Shown: one piece after another, positions 27,963 through 63,276 of the stretch
Position numbering within the stretch: position 1 is the first letter of the stretch
Layout of the letters: every line of letters begins with the position of its first letter
Source: Dysgonomonadaceae bacterium PH5-43
Lineage (GTDB): Bacteria > Bacteroidota > Bacteroidia > Bacteroidales > Azobacteroidaceae
DNA: 64,000 nt
Direction: 5' to 3'
Assembly: GCA_029916745.1 (NCBI GenBank)
Contig: JARXWK010000014.1
Span: 1 to 64,000, forward strand
Program-made: the position numbers and the translations under genes
The notes under the pieces: model-generated
The model's database searches: none
What the model was told of the DNA's origin: nothing
The model's input: only the letters and a program-made list of their open reading frames with translations

Positions 27963-28040
27963 TATGTAATTGTTGTTTACCAAAGACAAAATTACAGAAT
28001 TTTTCTGTGCTACTGATTAATTTTACAAAGAATATGTAGT

Positions 28041-28549
28041 TTTCTATTTCACCCAAATTCTCGACATTTTTTCAACTTACTTATTTTCACAAGACTTCTC
28101 TTTTTACTATTAATTTGATATTATAGACCCTTTGTGTTATTTAAGAGAAGAGGTAAGAGAGTAAGCAAACCGCATCAATAGACAACTATCCGTAATTACT
28201 TAACTCTCGGAGAAGAGCGTAAAAGTGAGCGACTGGACAAATGGTCGGCTATATCTCTCTTGCGAAGCACTTCGTAGCTCTCTGTAGAACTCCCTCTTCG
28301 TTCTTAGTAGATGGGCGAGCTGCTTCTTATTAGATACCCGATGTAGCTCTTAGTAGATACCCCTCGCCATTGTTAGTAGAGAGGAGGGCTGCTTCTTAGT
28401 AGAGACACGAGGGGTCTCTTAGTAGAGAGGAGACCCTAAGTGAAGCTTTGTATTTTTTGAACTAAGAACTAAGAGTGAAGAACTAAGAATTGGCGCGAAG
28501 CGACAAGCGAGCAAACTCGCAGTTAAAAACTAAAAGATAAAGTTAGGGC
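28041..28549 (+). repeat. Long modular intergenic repeat, copy B
   Basis: No ORF. The left module (28041-28255) is shared with copies C and D: TACTTATTTTCAC-like start, TTTGATATTAT, then CTCGGAGAAGAGCGTAAAA and GCGAAGCACTTCG. Next comes a shortened array (about 28255-28440) of degenerate units CTCTTAGTAGAGA or CTTCTTAGTAGATA, spaced 20-26 bases with GC-richer spacers such as GGCGAGCTG. The array ends in CCCTAAGTGAAGCTTTG. The alpha module (28459-28506, GAACTAAGAACTAAGAG) and the beta module (28521-28541, AAAAACTAAAAGATAAAG) follow; gamma is missing. It is directly followed by a piece copied from nadK. Confidence 0.85.
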
Positions 28550-28551
28550 TA

Positions 28552-28602
28552 CCTGCCACCTTAGGAGTGTAAGCAAAGGTTTTAGAAAGATAATTATAAA
28601 AA
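28552..28602 (+). repeat. 51-bp copy of an internal nadK segment
   Basis: This stretch is identical to 31148-31198, inside the nadK gene, except for one base (AAAGGT here, AAATGT in nadK). Both are in the same orientation on the plus strand. It starts exactly where the beta module of copy B ends. It has no reading frame of its own and looks like a recombination or copying scar. Confidence 0.85.
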
Positions 28603-28637
28603 ATATTTCAAACACGCTAAAATCTATTAAAATATTG

Positions 28638-28645
28638 TATCTTTG
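28638..28645 (+). promoter_or_regulatory. -7 box (TATCTTTG) before the degraded lipoprotein region
   Basis: A perfect -7 match 44 bases before the lipoprotein remnant. The usual TTTG at -33 is not clear. It may be the leftover promoter of a lipoprotein or beta-propeller operon of which only fragments remain. Confidence 0.4.
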
Positions 28646-42841: not shown

Positions 42842-44355
42842 AGTTTTACCGACTTCGACTTCCCTTTTTTCGACTCATTATGATATCTATCAACTGACGT
42901 AACTACGTATTTATACTTAGTTTTGCCATTCTTGTAAGGTAAGAGGATAGAAGTATTTTGAGTTACCGCAACTATTTTAGATGCATCGTTTAGATTTTCT
43001 TTCTCTTTATTGTTGAAACGATATACAACATAATATTGTGCGTTTGTAGGATCGCTTTTATCTCCATTAGCTTTCCATATTAGGCGATGAACATTATGTT
43101 TTTTATCAACCTTGAGCGACTTAACGTCTTTGGGCTTACCATCATAAAGATGAGAATAAGCAGGAATTATAGCTGGAGATTTATGATAATTTGTTTTTAA
43201 GCTATCAATTATACCACCGTTGTTGTTTAAGATTTCGTAAACAGGCCAAAAACAATTACCATACACTCCCGGCAAAGTTCGAGTAAGTTCCATTTTTCTA
43301 CTAAGTTGATTCTTGGCAGGCTGACGCAAATCACGAGTTTTCATAGTGCGGTCTACATCTTGTCCGATATAAAGATGCGCTCCATAGTTGTTGAGAGTCC
43401 ACCACTTAATAAGCGTTTCATAATCAGCAGCCGAATGTCCTATCTCCCAATATATTTGAGGAATATTATAATCTACCCAACCGTTTTCTACCCAAAGTTT
43501 AACATCAGCATAAAGGTTGTCGTAATTTTGCAAGCCATTAGTATTACTTCCCGAACCATCAGGAGTACTTTTCTTATTCCTATATATCCCAAAAGGACTA
43601 ATACCAAATCTCACATAAGGCTTCTCTAACAAAATTGTATTCTTAATGCGCTCTATAAGAATATTTACATTGTTTCTGCGCCAATCATCGCGTCTGCTTT
43701 TATCAAAACCTTGAAGTTCTCCGTATATATTAAAACTTATATCATCAGGGAAGTTTTCCCCAGCTATTGGGTAAGGATAAAAATAATCGTCCATATGAAT
43801 TGCATCAATATCATATCGCTGAACTATATCTTTTACAATTTTACAGATGTAATTTCGACTTTGAGGAAGTCCAGGGTCAAAGTAAATCTGTTTCCCGTAC
43901 TTAACAAACCATTCGGGGTGTTGATGATATATGTGAGAATGATGAATAGTTTCATTATCGGAAACGGCAATTCTGTATGGATTAAGCCAAGCGTGAAACT
44001 CTATACATCTTTTGTGAGCCTCCTCTATAAGAAACTCCATAGGGTCGAAATTGTTGTCGGGAGCCTTACCTTGTTGCCCTGTAAAGTGTTTACTCCAAGG
44101 CTCGATTTCAGAATAATAAAAAGCATCAGCACAAGGTCGTGCTTGAAAAACTATAGCGTTAAAATTGTAAGCCTTCAAGCTATCCAACATATTAATAAAA
44201 TACGTTTGCATTTCAGATGCCGACATATTTTTGTAACGGTCTTGCCACATAGTGCTAATCCAAACTCCTCGAAACTCTCTCTTAGTTGTTGTTTGAGCAG
44301 CGGTATTAAAAGATAGCGATATAAGAATGGCAATTATTAAGACTAAAGTTCTCAT
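42838..44355 (-). CDS. Family 10-like glycosyl hydrolase (GHL10/DUF187), secreted
   Basis: 505 residues with a signal peptide (LVLIIAILISLSFNTAAQ). It begins REFRGVWISTMW, the hallmark of the GHL10 group, with YDIDAIHMDDYFYPYP holding probable catalytic acids in a TIM barrel. The last 90 residues look like a fibronectin-type domain (HRLIWKANG ... QYYVVYRF). Relatives cleave or bind cell-envelope glycans; substrate is not known. A minus-strand -7 box TACCTTTG reads from 44385 to 44378, just before the ATG. Confidence 0.85.
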   Translation of the reverse strand: MRTLVLIIAILISLSFNTAAQTTTKREFRGVWISTMWQDRYKNMSASEMQTYFINMLDSLKAYNFNAIVFQARPCADAFYYSEIEPWSKHFTGQQGKAPDNNFDPMEFLIEEAHKRCIEFHAWLNPYRIAVSDNETIHHSHIYHQHPEWFVKYGKQIYFDPGLPQSRNYICKIVKDIVQRYDIDAIHMDDYFYPYPIAGENFPDDISFNIYGELQGFDKSRRDDWRRNNVNILIERIKNTILLEKPYVRFGISPFGIYRNKKSTPDGSGSNTNGLQNYDNLYADVKLWVENGWVDYNIPQIYWEIGHSAADYETLIKWWTLNNYGAHLYIGQDVDRTMKTRDLRQPAKNQLSRKMELTRTLPGVYGNCFWPVYEILNNNGGIIDSLKTNYHKSPAIIPAYSHLYDGKPKDVKSLKVDKKHNVHRLIWKANGDKSDPTNAQYYVVYRFNNKEKENLNDASKIVAVTQNTSILLPYKNGKTKYKYVVTSVDRYHNESKKGKSKSVKL

Positions 44356-44404
44356 TTATTGTTTGTTTTATCGAAAACAAAGGTAAAACAAAATAAGAAA
44401 AACA

Positions 44405-44587
44405 TACTATGATTTTTGAAAAACTCACTATGTTTCCTCTCGCAACTCACTGTGATGCGACACAAAACTCAGTCAGGTTTTTTTGTAACACAGTACAAGA
44501 AAGTTAAAAACTAAAAACTAAAAGATAAAAGTTGAAAAACCTCGATGAAATCAGGGATTTTTTGGTTTTACAACGTTTCACCAAAAG
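44405..44587 (+). repeat. ACTCACTGAG-type motifs plus an extra beta module
   Basis: Between the GH10-like gene and copy C: three variants of ACTCA(C/G)T motifs (about 44419-44435, 44454-44463, 44466-44481), like those before metG. A separate beta module follows at 44501-44535, and then TCGATGAAATCAGGG (44542-44556). The last resembles TCGATGAAGTCAGGT at 7975-7989. No ORF is present. Confidence 0.45.
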
Positions 44588-45190
44588 CCCGTAGGCAACG
44601 CTTCGCTCGCCGTACGGCTATGGAAGTTTTACCCCTTTGGGTATCCTAACTTTTATCTTTTAGTTTTTAGTTTTTAACTTGTGAAACACAAAGCTTCACT
44701 TAAGGGCTTCTCTCTACTAAGAGACCCCTGCTCTCTCTACTGAGATAGGCGAGGTCTCTCTTAGTAGAACGACGGGGTGGTTTAAGTATAAAGACGAGAC
44801 CGTTCTACTAAGAGCGACATCGGGTCTCTACTAAGAAACAGCTCGCCTATCTACTAAGAAAGGCGAGGGGTATCTAATAAGAAGCAACCGTCCTCTCTAC
44901 TAAGAGCAACAAGGGAGTTCTCCTAAGAAGCGGAGAGAGAGTTCTATTAAGGGCAACGAAGTGCTTCGCAAGAGAGATATAGCCGTTCATTTGTCCAGTC
45001 GCTCATTTTTACGCTCTTCTCCGAGAGTTAAGATATTACAGATAGTTGCTTGTCGGGGTCGTTTGTTTACTCTCTTGCCTTCTCTCTCAAATTAAGCAAA
45101 GGGTCGATAATATCAAAATAATATAGAAAAGAGAAGTATTGTGAAAATAAGTAAGTAGAGGAAATGTTGAGAATTAGGTAGAAATAGAAA
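44588..45190 (-). repeat. Long modular intergenic repeat, copy C
   Basis: Same element as copies B and D on the opposite strand. Read on the minus strand, the left module runs from 45190 to about 44965. An array of about ten short-hairpin units follows, ending at 44691 with CTTAAGTGAAGCTTTG. Next come a beta module (44645-44680) and a gamma module with its hairpin, GCGAAGCGTTGCCTACGG, at 44588-44622. The alpha module is missing. The array is nearly the same order as in D. It fills the 960-base gap between two divergent genes. Confidence 0.9.
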
Positions 45191-45315
45191 AAATAAAGAT
45201 AAAACTTTCGCTGAATAGTTACTTCAAAACTGCTAAAAGTTAAAAAAACGACAAAATATTTGCTTTCCAAATCTAAAATGCGTTAATTTACACCTTAGTT
45301 ATATATAGAGAAAAA

Positions 45316-46533
45316 ATGAAAACAAAGAAATTAATAGGAGTAATCGCCATTTTAGGGATTGCTACAGTAGCTGCAATCGTTATTTTTAATACGATTGTTA
45401 ACAATAACGACAAGAACAAAGGTGCAAATACGTTTATTAATGAAGAAAATGTAATTGTAGCTTCAGTATCTAAACCAGATTATATTAATCAGCATTTCTT
45501 TGACGCTAGCCAGTATGCCGACTCTGTAAAATTTATTCGCTTGGAGACCACAGACGAGAGTTTAATAGGAGGCATAACCGAATTGTTGTTTGATGATGAT
45601 TATGTCATTGTTGCTGATCGCAAGACTGCTTCTATCTTTTTCTTTGACTACGAAGGTAATTATTCCCACAAAATTAATAGGCGAGGACAAGGTGAAGGTG
45701 AATATCTTAGCTTAAGTCATGTAATGCTTGATAAAGAGAATGATGAAATTATAATTCTTGACATGAATTTACGAGCACTATTAAGATATGATTATCAAGG
45801 CAATCAAATTTCAAAGATAAGTAACTTTGACGATGATATGGTTCCTAGGGATATAATCAAACTTCCATCTGGCGATTTCTTATGCTATCGACAAGACCGT
45901 CTTGGAGATGAGGAAAAATGGCAAGCAGGAGTATGGAAAGTAAAAAAAGATGGTTCTTTGGATAAATTTATATATACATTAGATTTTGATACTAATTCTA
46001 GCTTCGTTCAATCTGTATATCATCTATCTTATCTCCATGATGGCAAAATAAGTTTTGTAGACCAAAACAAAACGGCGGTATTCAGTATAGATGAAAATGA
46101 TATTGTAAGCAAAATAGTTGAATTTAAAGTTCCTGGAAAAACGCTGGCTGAGATGCCAACTGTAGATAAATCTGATGGTGGTTATTATAGCATTTTTTGC
46201 AGTGAAGAAAAAGGAGATTATATATTTACTCAATGGATAGATCCTGAGAATAGAGTATTTCAAACTATTTTAACAAAAAGTACTGGAAAAATAGAAACTG
46301 GTATGGCTTTCTATCCTTTTGTATTTGGCACACACCTCCCTGGCAACAGTTTTGTTAGAAATAATAATCCTAAAATTTCTTCATCTTACTTTTACCCATC
46401 AACAATTCTTCAATATACACAATTAGACTTGCCAGATGAGTACAAACAACCTGCAGAGAAAATTATAGAAGGAATGACTTTGGAAGAAATTGAAGATTCT
46501 AATCCAATAATTCAATTGTTATATATAAAGTGA
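45316..46533 (+). CDS. 6-bladed beta-propeller protein, membrane-anchored
   Basis: 405 residues. The N-terminus has one hydrophobic segment (LIGVIAILGIATVAAIVIF) with no lipobox, resembling the leader of NVEALA-type peptides that often accompany this family; that link is a guess. The propeller starts near residue 65, with blades such as EGNYSHKINRRGQGEGEYLSL and repeated short Asp-rich turns. Function is unknown; such proteins cluster with thioredoxin-like proteins, as here. It is the intact relative of the truncated gene at 29079. Confidence 0.8.
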   Translation: MKTKKLIGVIAILGIATVAAIVIFNTIVNNNDKNKGANTFINEENVIVASVSKPDYINQHFFDASQYADSVKFIRLETTDESLIGGITELLFDDDYVIVADRKTASIFFFDYEGNYSHKINRRGQGEGEYLSLSHVMLDKENDEIIILDMNLRALLRYDYQGNQISKISNFDDDMVPRDIIKLPSGDFLCYRQDRLGDEEKWQAGVWKVKKDGSLDKFIYTLDFDTNSSFVQSVYHLSYLHDGKISFVDQNKTAVFSIDENDIVSKIVEFKVPGKTLAEMPTVDKSDGGYYSIFCSEEKGDYIFTQWIDPENRVFQTILTKSTGKIETGMAFYPFVFGTHLPGNSFVRNNNPKISSSYFYPSTILQYTQLDLPDEYKQPAEKIIEGMTLEEIEDSNPIIQLLYIK

Positions 46534-46631: not shown

Positions 46632-47515
46632 GAAGGATTATTTTATTACTTATACTTTTCGTGTCGTTAACTATTAGCGCACAAAACAACAACTACAATA
46701 TAGAGGAACAGAAACTTGAAGGGTACATCGTTGAACTTGAAAAACTTCACGAGACTATGATTTCCGTAAAAAAGCTTGAAACTCTTATGGCTGAGTTTGA
46801 AAAAATACCACAAGAGACTCTACAAGATCGAGAAGTTTTAGAAACTTACCAAAGTCGATACGATGAAGTTTTCAAAGAGATGACTATAGAGTACATAGAT
46901 TATATTAAAGTAAATCCCAGTTCTATGCTCAGTTTACTAATAGCAGCCGATTTGTTTGAGCAAATAGATAATGCATATTCGTACGAAGAACTATTGGACG
47001 TATTAAGTCCAGAACTATTAGAAAACGAAATAGGAACATCTTTAATTCAAAAGAATAACGACAGAAAGAAAACATCTATAGGCTCAATTGCTCCAAATTT
47101 CACACTTGACAATGTAAATGGCGAATCGGTTTCGTTGTCAGACTTTAGAGGGAAGTATGTGCTGATAGACTTCTGGGCAAGTTGGTGCCGTCCTTGCAGG
47201 AAAGAAAATCCATATTTAGTACAGGCTTACGAAAAGTTCAAAGATAAAAACTTCGAAATAATAGGCGTATCGTTAGATAATCCCGGCGGCAAACTTAATT
47301 GGGTAAACGCCATAGAGAAAGACGAACTTACTTGGATTCAAGTTTCAGATTTAAAAGGCTGGCAAAGCTCCGCAGCTATAGAATATAAAGTATTATCTAT
47401 ACCGCAAAATTTCTTAATCGACCCCGATGGGATAATTATTGCTAAGAACTTAAGAGGAAATGAACTCGAAAAAGTATTGACAAGAGTTGTGTGCTTCGCA
47501 CAAGATAAAAACTAA
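46628..47515 (+). CDS. TlpA-like thioredoxin-domain protein
   Basis: 295 residues, exported by the signal IILLLILFVSLTISA. Residues 25-145 are a mostly helical domain, and the thioredoxin fold begins near 150 (IGSIAPNFTL), with active-site Cys187 and Cys190 in WCRPC and a cis-Pro in the SIPQNFLID segment. It probably reduces disulfides in the periplasm. The last residues (VVCFAQDKN) and the stop are encoded by the beta repeat module, so the natural C-terminus seems to have been replaced. Confidence 0.88.
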   Translation: MRRIILLLILFVSLTISAQNNNYNIEEQKLEGYIVELEKLHETMISVKKLETLMAEFEKIPQETLQDREVLETYQSRYDEVFKEMTIEYIDYIKVNPSSMLSLLIAADLFEQIDNAYSYEELLDVLSPELLENEIGTSLIQKNNDRKKTSIGSIAPNFTLDNVNGESVSLSDFRGKYVLIDFWASWCRPCRKENPYLVQAYEKFKDKNFEIIGVSLDNPGGKLNWVNAIEKDELTWIQVSDLKGWQSSAAIEYKVLSIPQNFLIDPDGIIIAKNLRGNELEKVLTRVVCFAQDKN

Positions 47516-60750: not shown

Positions 60751-62649
60751 ATGAAAACAATAATTGATCTTTTTGAAGAAAGCGTCCACAAATTTACCAA
60801 TAATACCTTCCTCTGGGAAAAGAAAACAGATATATTTGAACCACTAACTTATATTCAAACAAAGAAACAAGTGCTCCGATTAGCAGGAGGCTTAATAAGT
60901 ATGGGTATAAAATCTGGCGACAAAGTAGCCCTTTTGTCAGAAGGTCGAAATGATTGGGTTATTGGGGAATTAGGAATCCTTTACACTGGAGCAGTAAACG
61001 TGCCTCTATCTATTAAACTCGAAGAAAGTAATGATTTAATATTTCGCATACAGCACTCCGAATCTCGTTTTATAATTACTTCAAAAAATCAATTAAAGAA
61101 GATAAGAGCCATAATAAATGATTGCCCTTTAGTAGAAAAAGTAATAATATTCGACAATATTGATGCTTACGATGGCAAAGAGGTTCCTTATGAAAATGTA
61201 TTAACGCTTGGAGATAAATACCTTGAGACAAATAAAGACGAACTGATTAAATTAAGTCAAGCTATAAAAGGCAATGATATGGCTAACATTAGTTATACAT
61301 CAGGAACTACCGCAGACCCTAAAGGCATTATGCTTTCACATCGCAACTACACAGCCAATGTAGAACAGGCAATGTCTTTAATAAAGATTAATCCAAGCGA
61401 TAGTAATCTTATAATAATTCCTCTCGATCATTGCTTCGGACACGTTGCGGGCTTTTACTCCTTTATGGCTTACGGAGCTAATGTTGCCACAGTACAAGTA
61501 GGACGAACGCCAATGGAAAGCTTGAAAAATATTCCTCTTAACATTAATGAATTTAAGCCTACAGTATTGATGAGTGTGCCTGCCTTAGCGAAAAACTTCA
61601 GAAAAAATATAGAAAACACTATCCGTAAAAAAGGGAAGAACACCGAAAAACTCTTCAATCACGCCCTTAAGGTTGCATATGCTTACAATAAAGAAGGTTA
61701 TAACAAAGGAGGGCTATTCCAACTTCACAACAAGCTGATGCTAAAGATTTACGACAAGTTGATTTTCTCTAAAGTAAGAGAAGGTTTAGGCGGACGATTA
61801 AAATTCTTTATCGGTGGAGGTGCTTTGTTAGATATCGAACTTCAACGCTTTTTCTATGCCATTGGCATTCCAATGTTTCAAGGATACGGATTAAGCGAAG
61901 CCACTCCTGTTATTTCGTCTAATAGTATGAAGAAACACAAGCTGGGTTCTTCTGGAGCTTTAGTCAAAAATCTGAAACTTAAGATTTGCGACCAAGATGG
62001 GAAAGAACTTAAGAAAGGTCAAAAAGGTGAGATTGTTATAAAGGGAGAAAACGTAATGCTCGGTTATTGGAAAAACCCTACAGCTACAGCAGAAACAATA
62101 AAAGACGGATGGCTACACACTGGCGATATGGGGTACTTGGATAAAGATGGTTTTTTATACGTTCTCGGACGCTTCAAAAGTTTACTTATAAGTAGTGATG
62201 GCGAAAAATACAGTCCCGAAGGAATAGAAGAAGGCATCGCCGACACTACTAAATACATTGATCAAATGTTGCTTCACAACAATCAAGACCCATATACTGT
62301 AGCTTTGATAGTTCCCGATAAAGAACAACTTAAAAAATACATAGAGCGTATTAAGCCCGGCTTAGCGTGGGAAAGCAAAGAAGCTAAAGAATTAGCATTG
62401 CTTAAACTACAAGACGTAATAAACAGATATAAAAGTGGCGGAGTTTCGGCAGGCGAATATCCCGAAAGATGGCTTCCCGCTGCCATTGCTGTGTTGCCTG
62501 AAGCTTTCACGGAACAAAATCAGCTATTAAATTCTTCCCTTAAGATGGTAAGAGGTAAGATTGAAGAGAAATATGCCGACCGTTTACAATATCTTTATAC
62601 CCCGGAAGGTAAGAATATCGTTAACGAAAAAAATATCGAATCGATTTAA
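60751..62649 (+). CDS. Long-chain acyl-CoA synthetase (AMP-binding)
   Basis: 632 residues of the ANL superfamily. It activates a fatty acid to acyl-AMP and then acyl-CoA. The ATP motif is YTSGTTADPKGIMLSH (about 185-200). Further motifs are GYGLSEATPV, the TGDMGYLDKDG hinge and LGRFKSLLISSDGEKYSPEGIEE, in which the adenylation Lys is expected later. Preceded by a -7 box TATCTTTG (60713-60720). No neighbour tells the chain length. Confidence 0.92.
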   Translation: MKTIIDLFEESVHKFTNNTFLWEKKTDIFEPLTYIQTKKQVLRLAGGLISMGIKSGDKVALLSEGRNDWVIGELGILYTGAVNVPLSIKLEESNDLIFRIQHSESRFIITSKNQLKKIRAIINDCPLVEKVIIFDNIDAYDGKEVPYENVLTLGDKYLETNKDELIKLSQAIKGNDMANISYTSGTTADPKGIMLSHRNYTANVEQAMSLIKINPSDSNLIIIPLDHCFGHVAGFYSFMAYGANVATVQVGRTPMESLKNIPLNINEFKPTVLMSVPALAKNFRKNIENTIRKKGKNTEKLFNHALKVAYAYNKEGYNKGGLFQLHNKLMLKIYDKLIFSKVREGLGGRLKFFIGGGALLDIELQRFFYAIGIPMFQGYGLSEATPVISSNSMKKHKLGSSGALVKNLKLKICDQDGKELKKGQKGEIVIKGENVMLGYWKNPTATAETIKDGWLHTGDMGYLDKDGFLYVLGRFKSLLISSDGEKYSPEGIEEGIADTTKYIDQMLLHNNQDPYTVALIVPDKEQLKKYIERIKPGLAWESKEAKELALLKLQDVINRYKSGGVSAGEYPERWLPAAIAVLPEAFTEQNQLLNSSLKMVRGKIEEKYADRLQYLYTPEGKNIVNEKNIESI

Positions 62650-62653
62650 GATT

Positions 62654-63276
62654 TTTCTCTACTTACTTATTTTCATAAAACTTCTCTTTTTTCTATTATT
62701 TTGATATTATCGACCTTTTGCGTCATTTAAGAGAGGGATCAAGATAGTAAGCAAACTACCCCCGATAGGCAACTATCTGTAATATCTTAACTCTCGGAGA
62801 AGAGCGTAAAAATGAGCGAGTGGACAAATGGACGGCTCTATCTCTCTTAAGAAGCACTTCGCAGCTATTAGGAGAACCACCTTATCTTTGTTACTAAAGA
62901 GGCGAGCTGCTTCTTACAAGATACCCCTTGTCTCTCTTAGCAGATACCCCTCGCCTTTGTTAGTAGATAGGCGAGCTGTTTCTTTGTAGAGACCCGATGC
63001 CGCTCTTCGTAGAACGGTCTCGTCTGTATACTTAAGACACCCCATCGTTCTTAGTAGAGAGACCTCGCCTATCTCAGTAGAGAGAGCAGGGGTCTCTTAG
63101 TAGAGAGAAGCCCCTAAGTGAAGCTTTGCATTTTTTGAACTAAGAACTAAGAGTGAAGAACTAAGAGTTGGCGCGAAGCGACAAGCTCGCAGTTAAAAAC
63201 TAAAAGATAAAAGTTAGGGTTACCCAAAGGGTAAAAATTCCATAGCCGTACGGTGAGCGAAGCGTTGCCTACGGGG
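62654..63276 (+). repeat. Long modular intergenic repeat, copy D
   Basis: The most complete copy and the main content of the 720-base gap before the next gene. It starts five bases after the acyl-CoA ligase stop. The left module (62654-62860) holds TTTGATATTAT and CTCGGAGAAGAGCGTAAAA. The array (about 62860-63110) carries around eleven units of CTCTTAGTAGAGA or variants, such as ATAGGCGAGCTG spacers. The end motif CCTAAGTGAAGCTTTGCA, alpha (63137-63186), beta (63191-63213) and gamma (63220-63275, GCGAAGCGTTGCCTACGG at the end) follow in order. No ORF is present. Copy D agrees with C over nearly all of the array. Confidence 0.9.

Follow-up and report, generated by a model that had tools for sequence, protein, structure and literature searches.

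Small transposable units carrying a tandem array have rarely been described in bacteria, and the two examples that our searches of open-licence papers gave (PMC4596501, in the sections drawn on here), BrickBuilt and PgRS/464, both belong to Porphyromonas gingivalis. BrickBuilt is a MITE whose leader and tail enclose an imperfect 23-nt tandem repeat (Klein et al. 2015, PMC4596501). According to the same sections, it is dispersed in 19 copies, reported to be always intergenic, and its IS5-like TIRs (GAGACCTTTGCA) resemble those of resident IS elements, both TIRs being found in 4 of the 19 copies. Long stem-loops are predicted within it, it displayed promoter activity in reporters, and it is confined to P. 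gingivalis and its near kin P. gulae (PMC4596501, same sections). It is also named in the part used here of a 2024 review on prokaryotic MITEs (PMC10969869). The other example, MITE464/PgRS, is presented in those sections of PMC4596501 as a dispersed MITE-like element with internal 41-nt repeats.

These features are echoed by a repeat family of Dysgonomonadaceae bacterium PH5-43, three members of which lie in the window, the stretch of 64,000 nucleotides of contig JARXWK010000014.1 analysed here. Each combines a left module (the leader), an array of short cores, a tail and right-hand modules. In copy 1, on the plus strand, the leader (28041..28261) is followed by seven cores at exactly 23-bp steps (28279..28426), by the conserved tail CCTAAGTGAAGCTTTGYATT (28435..28454) and by right-hand generic repeats (28459..28547), namely AACTAAG heptamers and then a AACTAAAAGATAAAG module, with similar sequences in congeneric genomes. 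Copy 2, on the minus strand, begins with an outer left end that we call type a (CTATTCAGCGAAAGTTTTATC, 45198..45218), possibly a diverged TIR; its left module (44970..45190) precedes 10 recognisable cores (44713..44952) in steps of 23 bp with one of 24 and one of 45, the tail (44685..44705) and right-hand modules (AACTAAAAGATAAAAGTTAGG, then CCATAGCCGTACGGCGAGCGAAGCG and following bases; 44588..44670). Copy 3, on the plus strand, lacks about the first 26 bases of the left module (62653..62848), which begins just past the stop codon of the preceding gene (60751-62649); its array of nine recognisable cores (62866..63104; steps of 23 bp, one of 45 and one of 46) is followed by the tail (63113..63132) and by right-hand generic repeats with a CCATAGCCGTACGG module (63137..63275).

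The three copies are thus present where the earlier note had placed them and, as it had said, without long ORFs. Its right-hand modules are also there; part of them, made of AACTAAG heptamers and AACTAAAAGATAAAAG, is a generic repeat found in congeneric genomes as well. Heptamer repeats of the type AACTAAG/AACTAAA adjoin the right ends of many members (28459-28488 and 63137-63166 in the window; L052:30-165 and L057:490-570 elsewhere).

Far from being limited to three copies, the family numbers at least 86 tail-bearing members dispersed over the genome (2,537,984 bases, 46 contigs), 38 of them oriented on the plus strand and 48 on the minus strand. The left module of copy 1 is present genome-wide in 38 near-full and 2 partial copies, 34 of the 38 starting at the same first base, and the tail CCTAAGTGAAGCTTTGYATT in 79 copies at no more than 2 mismatches (control 0). 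Members were anchored on tails with up to 4 substitutions in the genome stretches examined; this gave 88 places, of which two were dropped for want of a core upstream, C1:75343, which is unrelated, and C4:12137, probably a decayed family member. The leader form accounts for 35 of the 86 members and the leader-less form for 51. Over array and tail, pairwise identity averages 75% among 83 members (median to the nearest neighbour 88%, best pair 94.8%), and the 38 left modules average 83% (best pair 97.2%). Since no two arrays are nearly identical, and even the best leaders reach only 97.2%, there is no sign of recent movement.

Several contigs of the assembly end within the repeat or next to members, as at the starts of C14, C15, C18, C24 and C37. 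Contigs C9 and C14 share identical first 95 bases, which in C14 sit inside an array member. Because the assembly breaks within the repeat in this way, the count of members is a lower bound and the true copy number is probably above 86. At two places, C2_145069 and C8_48228, flanking DNA is common to both members on both sides, which may point to the duplication of a larger unit.

The array unit is made of a 10-bp quasi-palindromic core (TCTTAGTAGA) and a 13-bp spacer. Exact cores occur at 486 sites genome-wide (233 forward, 253 reverse) against 11 (5 and 6) for the reversed pattern, and pairs of exact cores 23 bp apart number 184 (93 and 91) in the whole genome, against 0 and 0 for the reversed control; at up to 2 mismatches, 460 such pairs are found (209 and 251). 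Over the 86 members, 759 of 841 consecutive steps measure 23 bp and 61 measure 22 bp, the walk along the array being limited to slips of 2 or less, so that larger ones could not show. In the window copies, the steps of 45 and 46 bp fall where one core has decayed, and Tandem Repeats Finder reports periods of 23, 46 and 69. The spacing first described as 20-26 bases is therefore really 23 bp, with single steps of 24 and of 45/46 in the window copies. Arrays hold 9 to 14 units in 78 of the 86 members, although the far units may be overcounted, as the walk tolerated up to 4 mismatches per core.

Spacers at positions 1 to 7 from the tail each have their own consensus, for instance ACCACCCCGTCGT at position 3, from the 38 members that have a 23-bp step at this point, and gACCCGATGccGC at position 5, from 80 members. 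What had been noticed as spacers repeating between copies is thus a set of spacers common to the members and fixed by position, and this position specificity indicates that the array is copied whole, as one unit. The core centre is TAGT in 464 of 927 unit slots and the inverted ACTA in 78; the other 385 slots carry other centres (TACT 72, TATT 48, ACTT 38, CAGT 31 and more). Flips of the core are concentrated at positions 1 to 3, with ACTA in 44 of 85 cases at position 2, and leave the flanking spacers unmoved; identical flanking contexts with both centre orientations were found in 2 of 6, 2 of 35 and 2 of 33 cases at cores 1, 2 and 3, respectively. As TAGT and ACTA differ at all four bases, an inversion in one step is likelier than a series of point mutations, and we infer that cores flip by template switching at the small hairpin. 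Transposition itself does not account for the regularity of the 23-bp step.

As far as the sections of PMC4596501 drawn on here allow the comparison, BrickBuilt and the present family share a 23-nt tandem repeat, a leader, a tail, dispersal, intergenic location, long predicted stem-loops and many copies without intact ends. They differ in copy number (19 for BrickBuilt and at least 86 here) and in the TIR, IS5-like (GAGACCTTTGCA) in the former and TATTRCTGTCCGRTAAAA of an IS4-family IS in the latter. Against the BrickBuilt unit AGAYCATARTATCCTCTCRTRTG, the present units match at 10-13 of 23 positions, as shuffles do, and seven of seven unit consensuses do no better; with a unit match no better than shuffles and another TIR, identity with BrickBuilt was rejected. 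Position-specific spacers, a quasi-palindromic core and a centre flipped in place are seen in the present family. The family works like BrickBuilt without being one. MITE464/PgRS, compared by description only and within the same sections, also has an internal tandem repeat, although its 41-nt unit differs. In the open-licence PMC literature we found no description of such an element elsewhere, and a search for the letters of the core returned, among the matches listed, papers that by title all deal with other subjects.

Two better known classes of repeats come to mind. REP, BIME and REPIN sequences, mobilised by RAYT (PMC3733652, in the part used here), are likewise many-copy quasi-palindromes outside genes, and the present core contains a GTAG stretch; the difference is that the present units form long 23-bp arrays inside a larger element. 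The profile Y1_Tnp/RAYT PF01797 has 0 matches in the genome, the control search giving matches in 5 of 14 genomes, so that the exclusion of REP/BIME made from the window holds. That of CRISPR holds as well. The likeness is one of short repeats with spacers, while here the repeat is a degenerate 10-bp one and the 13-bp spacers, far from being unique to a locus, are shared and fixed by position across loci.

In the left flanks of some members, the TIR TATTRCTGTCCGRTAAAA stands directly before the leader or before the start of the short form. It is absent from all three window copies, copy 2 having the type a outer end instead. At up to 4 mismatches, it was found at the left of 14 of 83 members (the search covering 70 bp about the start of the leader or the 166 bp preceding the nine-unit array; reversed and complement controls 0/83 each) and, in the 200 bp after the tail, at the right of 2 of 86 (C2_116154 and C12_27439; control 0/86). 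At this threshold the TIR is missing on the left in 69 of 83 cases and on the right in 84 of 86, and no full-size member has both, C2_116154 and C12_27439 not being among the 14 with a left TIR. With 5 mismatches, 15 left (controls 3 and 1) and 8 right matches (control 3) appear, and these weaker matches were left unused. The outer end of type a, CTATTCAGCGAAAGCTTTATC, precedes 18 of 38 left modules when up to 5 mismatches are allowed (0/38 in the reversed control) and may be a diverged TIR.

The same TIR bounds a resident IS at C26:4411-5819, of 1,409 bp, whose TIRs (TATTACTGTCCGATAAAA) match each other at 18 of 18 positions and which is flanked by a 9-bp target duplication, GTTGAGAAT (9/9). 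This IS carries, unlike the members, a transposase; the protein, of 404 aa with PF01609 (DDE_Tnp_1) and PF14294 (DUF4372), belongs to the IS4 family by NCBIfam NF033592 (199 bits, cut-off 115). Several members have the TIR of this IS as their left end, with 0 mismatches at C2_81862 and 1 mismatch at C2_131015. A second IS, on C3, has a diverged TIR and a target duplication TTTGATTCT (9/9). In total, IS4-like transposases are found at three places in this genome, and 14 of 38 genomes of the genus, this one included, have a match. A tyrosine-recombinase gene (Phage_integrase and Arm-DNA-bind_5; L156:1554-2765, minus strand) directly adjoins the IS on C26. A further MITE-like family, on C6, C15, C16, C20 and C27, has this same TIR with CTTTAACCTCATAACAACATTAGCGAAACA or a near variant of it behind, and a 58-bp element on C23, at about 46638-46695, is little more than two facing TIRs.

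Two smaller elements connect the TIR with the array. At C23:35371-35536, a 166-bp element is bounded on either side by the TIR (TATTACTGTATGGTAAAA on the left; the right one has 4 mismatches) and contains array units and a tail. With E<1e-4, its inside is matched by 72 of the 86 members and, in the reversed control, by 0; no 9-bp duplication is seen at the expected place (2/9). At C3:125563-126305, a 743-bp TIR element contains an array relic matched by 23 of the 86 members (reversed control 0); it sits in a CRISPR-like repeat with a duplication of 8/9, and unoccupied copies of that repeat are visible alongside. The CRISPR-like array that it interrupts extends over about 125.5-127.1 kb of C3 (repeat GTTGTGATTTGCTATCAAAATTGTATCTTTGACATATTGGAAACA). 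For full-size members, inspection by eye for target duplications gave no convincing case. MITEs with TIRs had been excluded in the earlier note. This exclusion is not upheld for the family, given the left TIR in 14 of 83 members and the 166-bp member bounded at both ends.

The family appears restricted to its own genome. The search of the genome and its relatives that had been proposed revealed many further copies in the former, whereas none of the 37 other genomes of the genus, compared at one genome per species, has the core pair, even with 2 mismatches allowed. With the whole copy as query and an E-value limit of 1e-3, matches appeared in 17 of 57 relatives, namely 16 of the 33 that belong to the genus and 1 of the 24 others; among the matches listed, all lie within positions 477-573 of the query, in heptamer-type repeats. 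Such right-hand-module matches were considered as relatives of the element and rejected, as the ten loci inspected in the genus consist of repeats of the type AACTAAG/AACTAAA. Core pairs are absent from the plasmid and phage sets. One pair each was found in genome_contigs (a Betaproteobacteria MAG) and in viral_contigs, and we read both as chance. A 25-base stretch of the leader has 0 exact matches in genome_contigs, a set that possibly does not contain this genome or a near one.

Members occupy intergenic regions. In the 86 members, array and tail are covered by no ORF of 80 aa or longer, with the exception of one of 85 aa at C19_8352, and neighbouring ORFs, allowed to overlap by up to 60 bp, enter array or tail by at most 19 bp. 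Gene calls in this analysis are plain ORFs. Of the 41 leader-less members whose two neighbours are known, 18 are placed between convergent genes, against 13 of 89 background gaps of at least 30 bp (p 6.6e-4) and 6 of 57 of at least 100 bp (p 2.5e-4). The leader form, found between convergent genes in 5 of 34 cases, does not differ from the background. Measured from the edge of the nine-unit array, the median distance to a gene 3′ end is 76 bp on the upstream side (31 members) and 104 bp on the downstream side (32 members). The leader faces a gene start, the upstream neighbour pointing away, in 21 of 34 members of the leader form against 12 of 43 leader-less ones (p 0.005), and the leader form lies between divergent genes in 12 of 34 cases, as does the background (31/89). 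As these 21 upstream neighbours point away and 12 members are in divergent gaps, the leader form does not avoid gene starts.

The excess of leader-less members in convergent gaps would suit a functional intergenic array at gene 3′ ends, the hairpin units serving as terminator, insulator or protector of mRNA ends between convergent genes. So would the strong folding, since members reach on average -79.9 kcal/mol over 230 nt (76 members) when mononucleotide shuffles reach -55.9. We nevertheless consider such a role unlikely. Leader-bearing members are without the convergent bias, and the background gaps were taken from the same stretches, next to elements, the window alone giving 4 convergent gaps in 24 (3 in 14 at 100 bp or more). 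Insertions that avoid promoters would yield an identical bias, and promoter avoidance is enough to explain the leader-less pattern. Moreover, chimeras in which the 23-base columns are dealt among members at the same positions fold as well as real arrays (-79.5), and left and right halves pair no better within a copy (-63.96) than between copies (-64.93), 4741 of 5000 permutations being as good or better. As chimeras and permutations do as well, folding comes mainly from unit composition and not from a fold maintained copy by copy. In copy 2 (44300-45400), a scan gave 0 sites resembling intrinsic terminators (shuffles 0.9) and 4 promoter-like sites (shuffles 2.4, sd 1.5). The predicted long hairpins, with a 42-bp perfect stem in one of the 76 members and a slight advantage of real arrays over blocks shuffled in order (-76.9), could also evoke a conserved structured RNA, that is a dispersed non-coding RNA gene. 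The mean longest perfect stem is 14.2 bp, against 13.6 for chimeras, 13.2 for order-shuffled arrays and 8.4 for mononucleotide shuffles. Yet covariation is lacking and the antisense strand folds equally strongly (-82.6). In Rfam, the region of copy 1 (27990-28640) has no match at E up to 1, and the window, with copies 2 and 3 searched at gathering score only, gives tRNA alone at that score. The transcribed structured RNA offered among the initial options thus finds no support from covariation or Rfam, and we hold it to be very improbable. The lowest of eight folds inspected, that of the member at C25:25797 on the minus strand (-102.7 kcal/mol in 285 nt), shows a long unbroken helix and looks as though a palindrome had recently been made perfect.

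The array could alternatively be a protein-binding one, in which the core TCT-TAGT-AGA, recurring every 23 bp, is read by a nucleoid protein or a dimeric DNA-binding one. The strict register, a core at every position while spacers vary by position, and the occurrence of the centre in both orientations, as a dyad site would allow, are all compatible with this. It seems quite unlikely to us, however, when spacers 1-7 are conserved among members too, so that conservation of the core may reflect descent only, and when 385 of 927 slots carry other centres. The flips, for their part, need few events, being found at positions 1-3 with few contexts showing both orientations, and a step of 23 bp does not correspond to an integral number of helical turns. 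A last reading would make the arrays old remnants of recombination that gene conversion has spread, with the TIRs inserted at their edges afterwards and independently. That TIRs are found on a minority of ends, and that ends are modular and swapped, speaks for it. In several members, on the other hand, the TIR directly abuts the leader at identical first bases (CTTTTTCTATTTC) or abuts the short form at its start CAATCTTAGTAAAAG or near it, and the 166-bp member has TIR boundaries on both sides, which makes this reading hardly credible.

We consider it probable that the arrays belong to a genome-specific, minisatellite-bearing and MITE-like non-autonomous family, once mobilised in trans by an IS4-family transposase, with most copies now most likely decayed. 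The 86 oriented members resemble prokaryotic MITEs in being below about 1 kb, non-coding, in many copies and intergenic, and a non-autonomous element is the best supported of the three options proposed at the outset. Against this reading speak the lack of a full-size member with both TIRs or with a convincing target duplication, the different end of type a on 18 of 38 left modules, the presence of the leader form near gene starts, the want of any sign of recent movement and the regularity of the 23-bp step. According to this scenario, the IS4-family transposase would have acted in trans on TIR-bearing members and so allowed their spread, after which copies would lose one or both ends by decay, recombination or nested insertion. 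The array may have grown by tandem duplication of the 23-bp quasi-palindromic unit, with cores flipping in place through template switching at small hairpins. Selection would remove harmful insertions, leaving copies that are intergenic and, in the leader-less form, mostly at gene 3′ ends.

A wider proposal, which we regard as doubtful, is that MITEs with a 23-bp minisatellite arose independently at least twice, in BrickBuilt and here, with unrelated units and different IS movers, that a factor of the cell stands behind the 23-bp dyad units, and that the arrays were adopted as 3′-end boundary elements between convergent genes. If it were true, a dimeric DNA-binding protein, an accessory site of the transposase or the spacing of hairpins in single-stranded DNA would select or generate 23-bp dyad units. 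Sharing with BrickBuilt the 23-bp step, but neither the sequence nor the IS family, and exceeding it in copies more than fourfold, the family would make this kind of element comparable across organisms, and in its about 86 natural copies the growth of the array, the flipping of cores and the loss of ends may be read.
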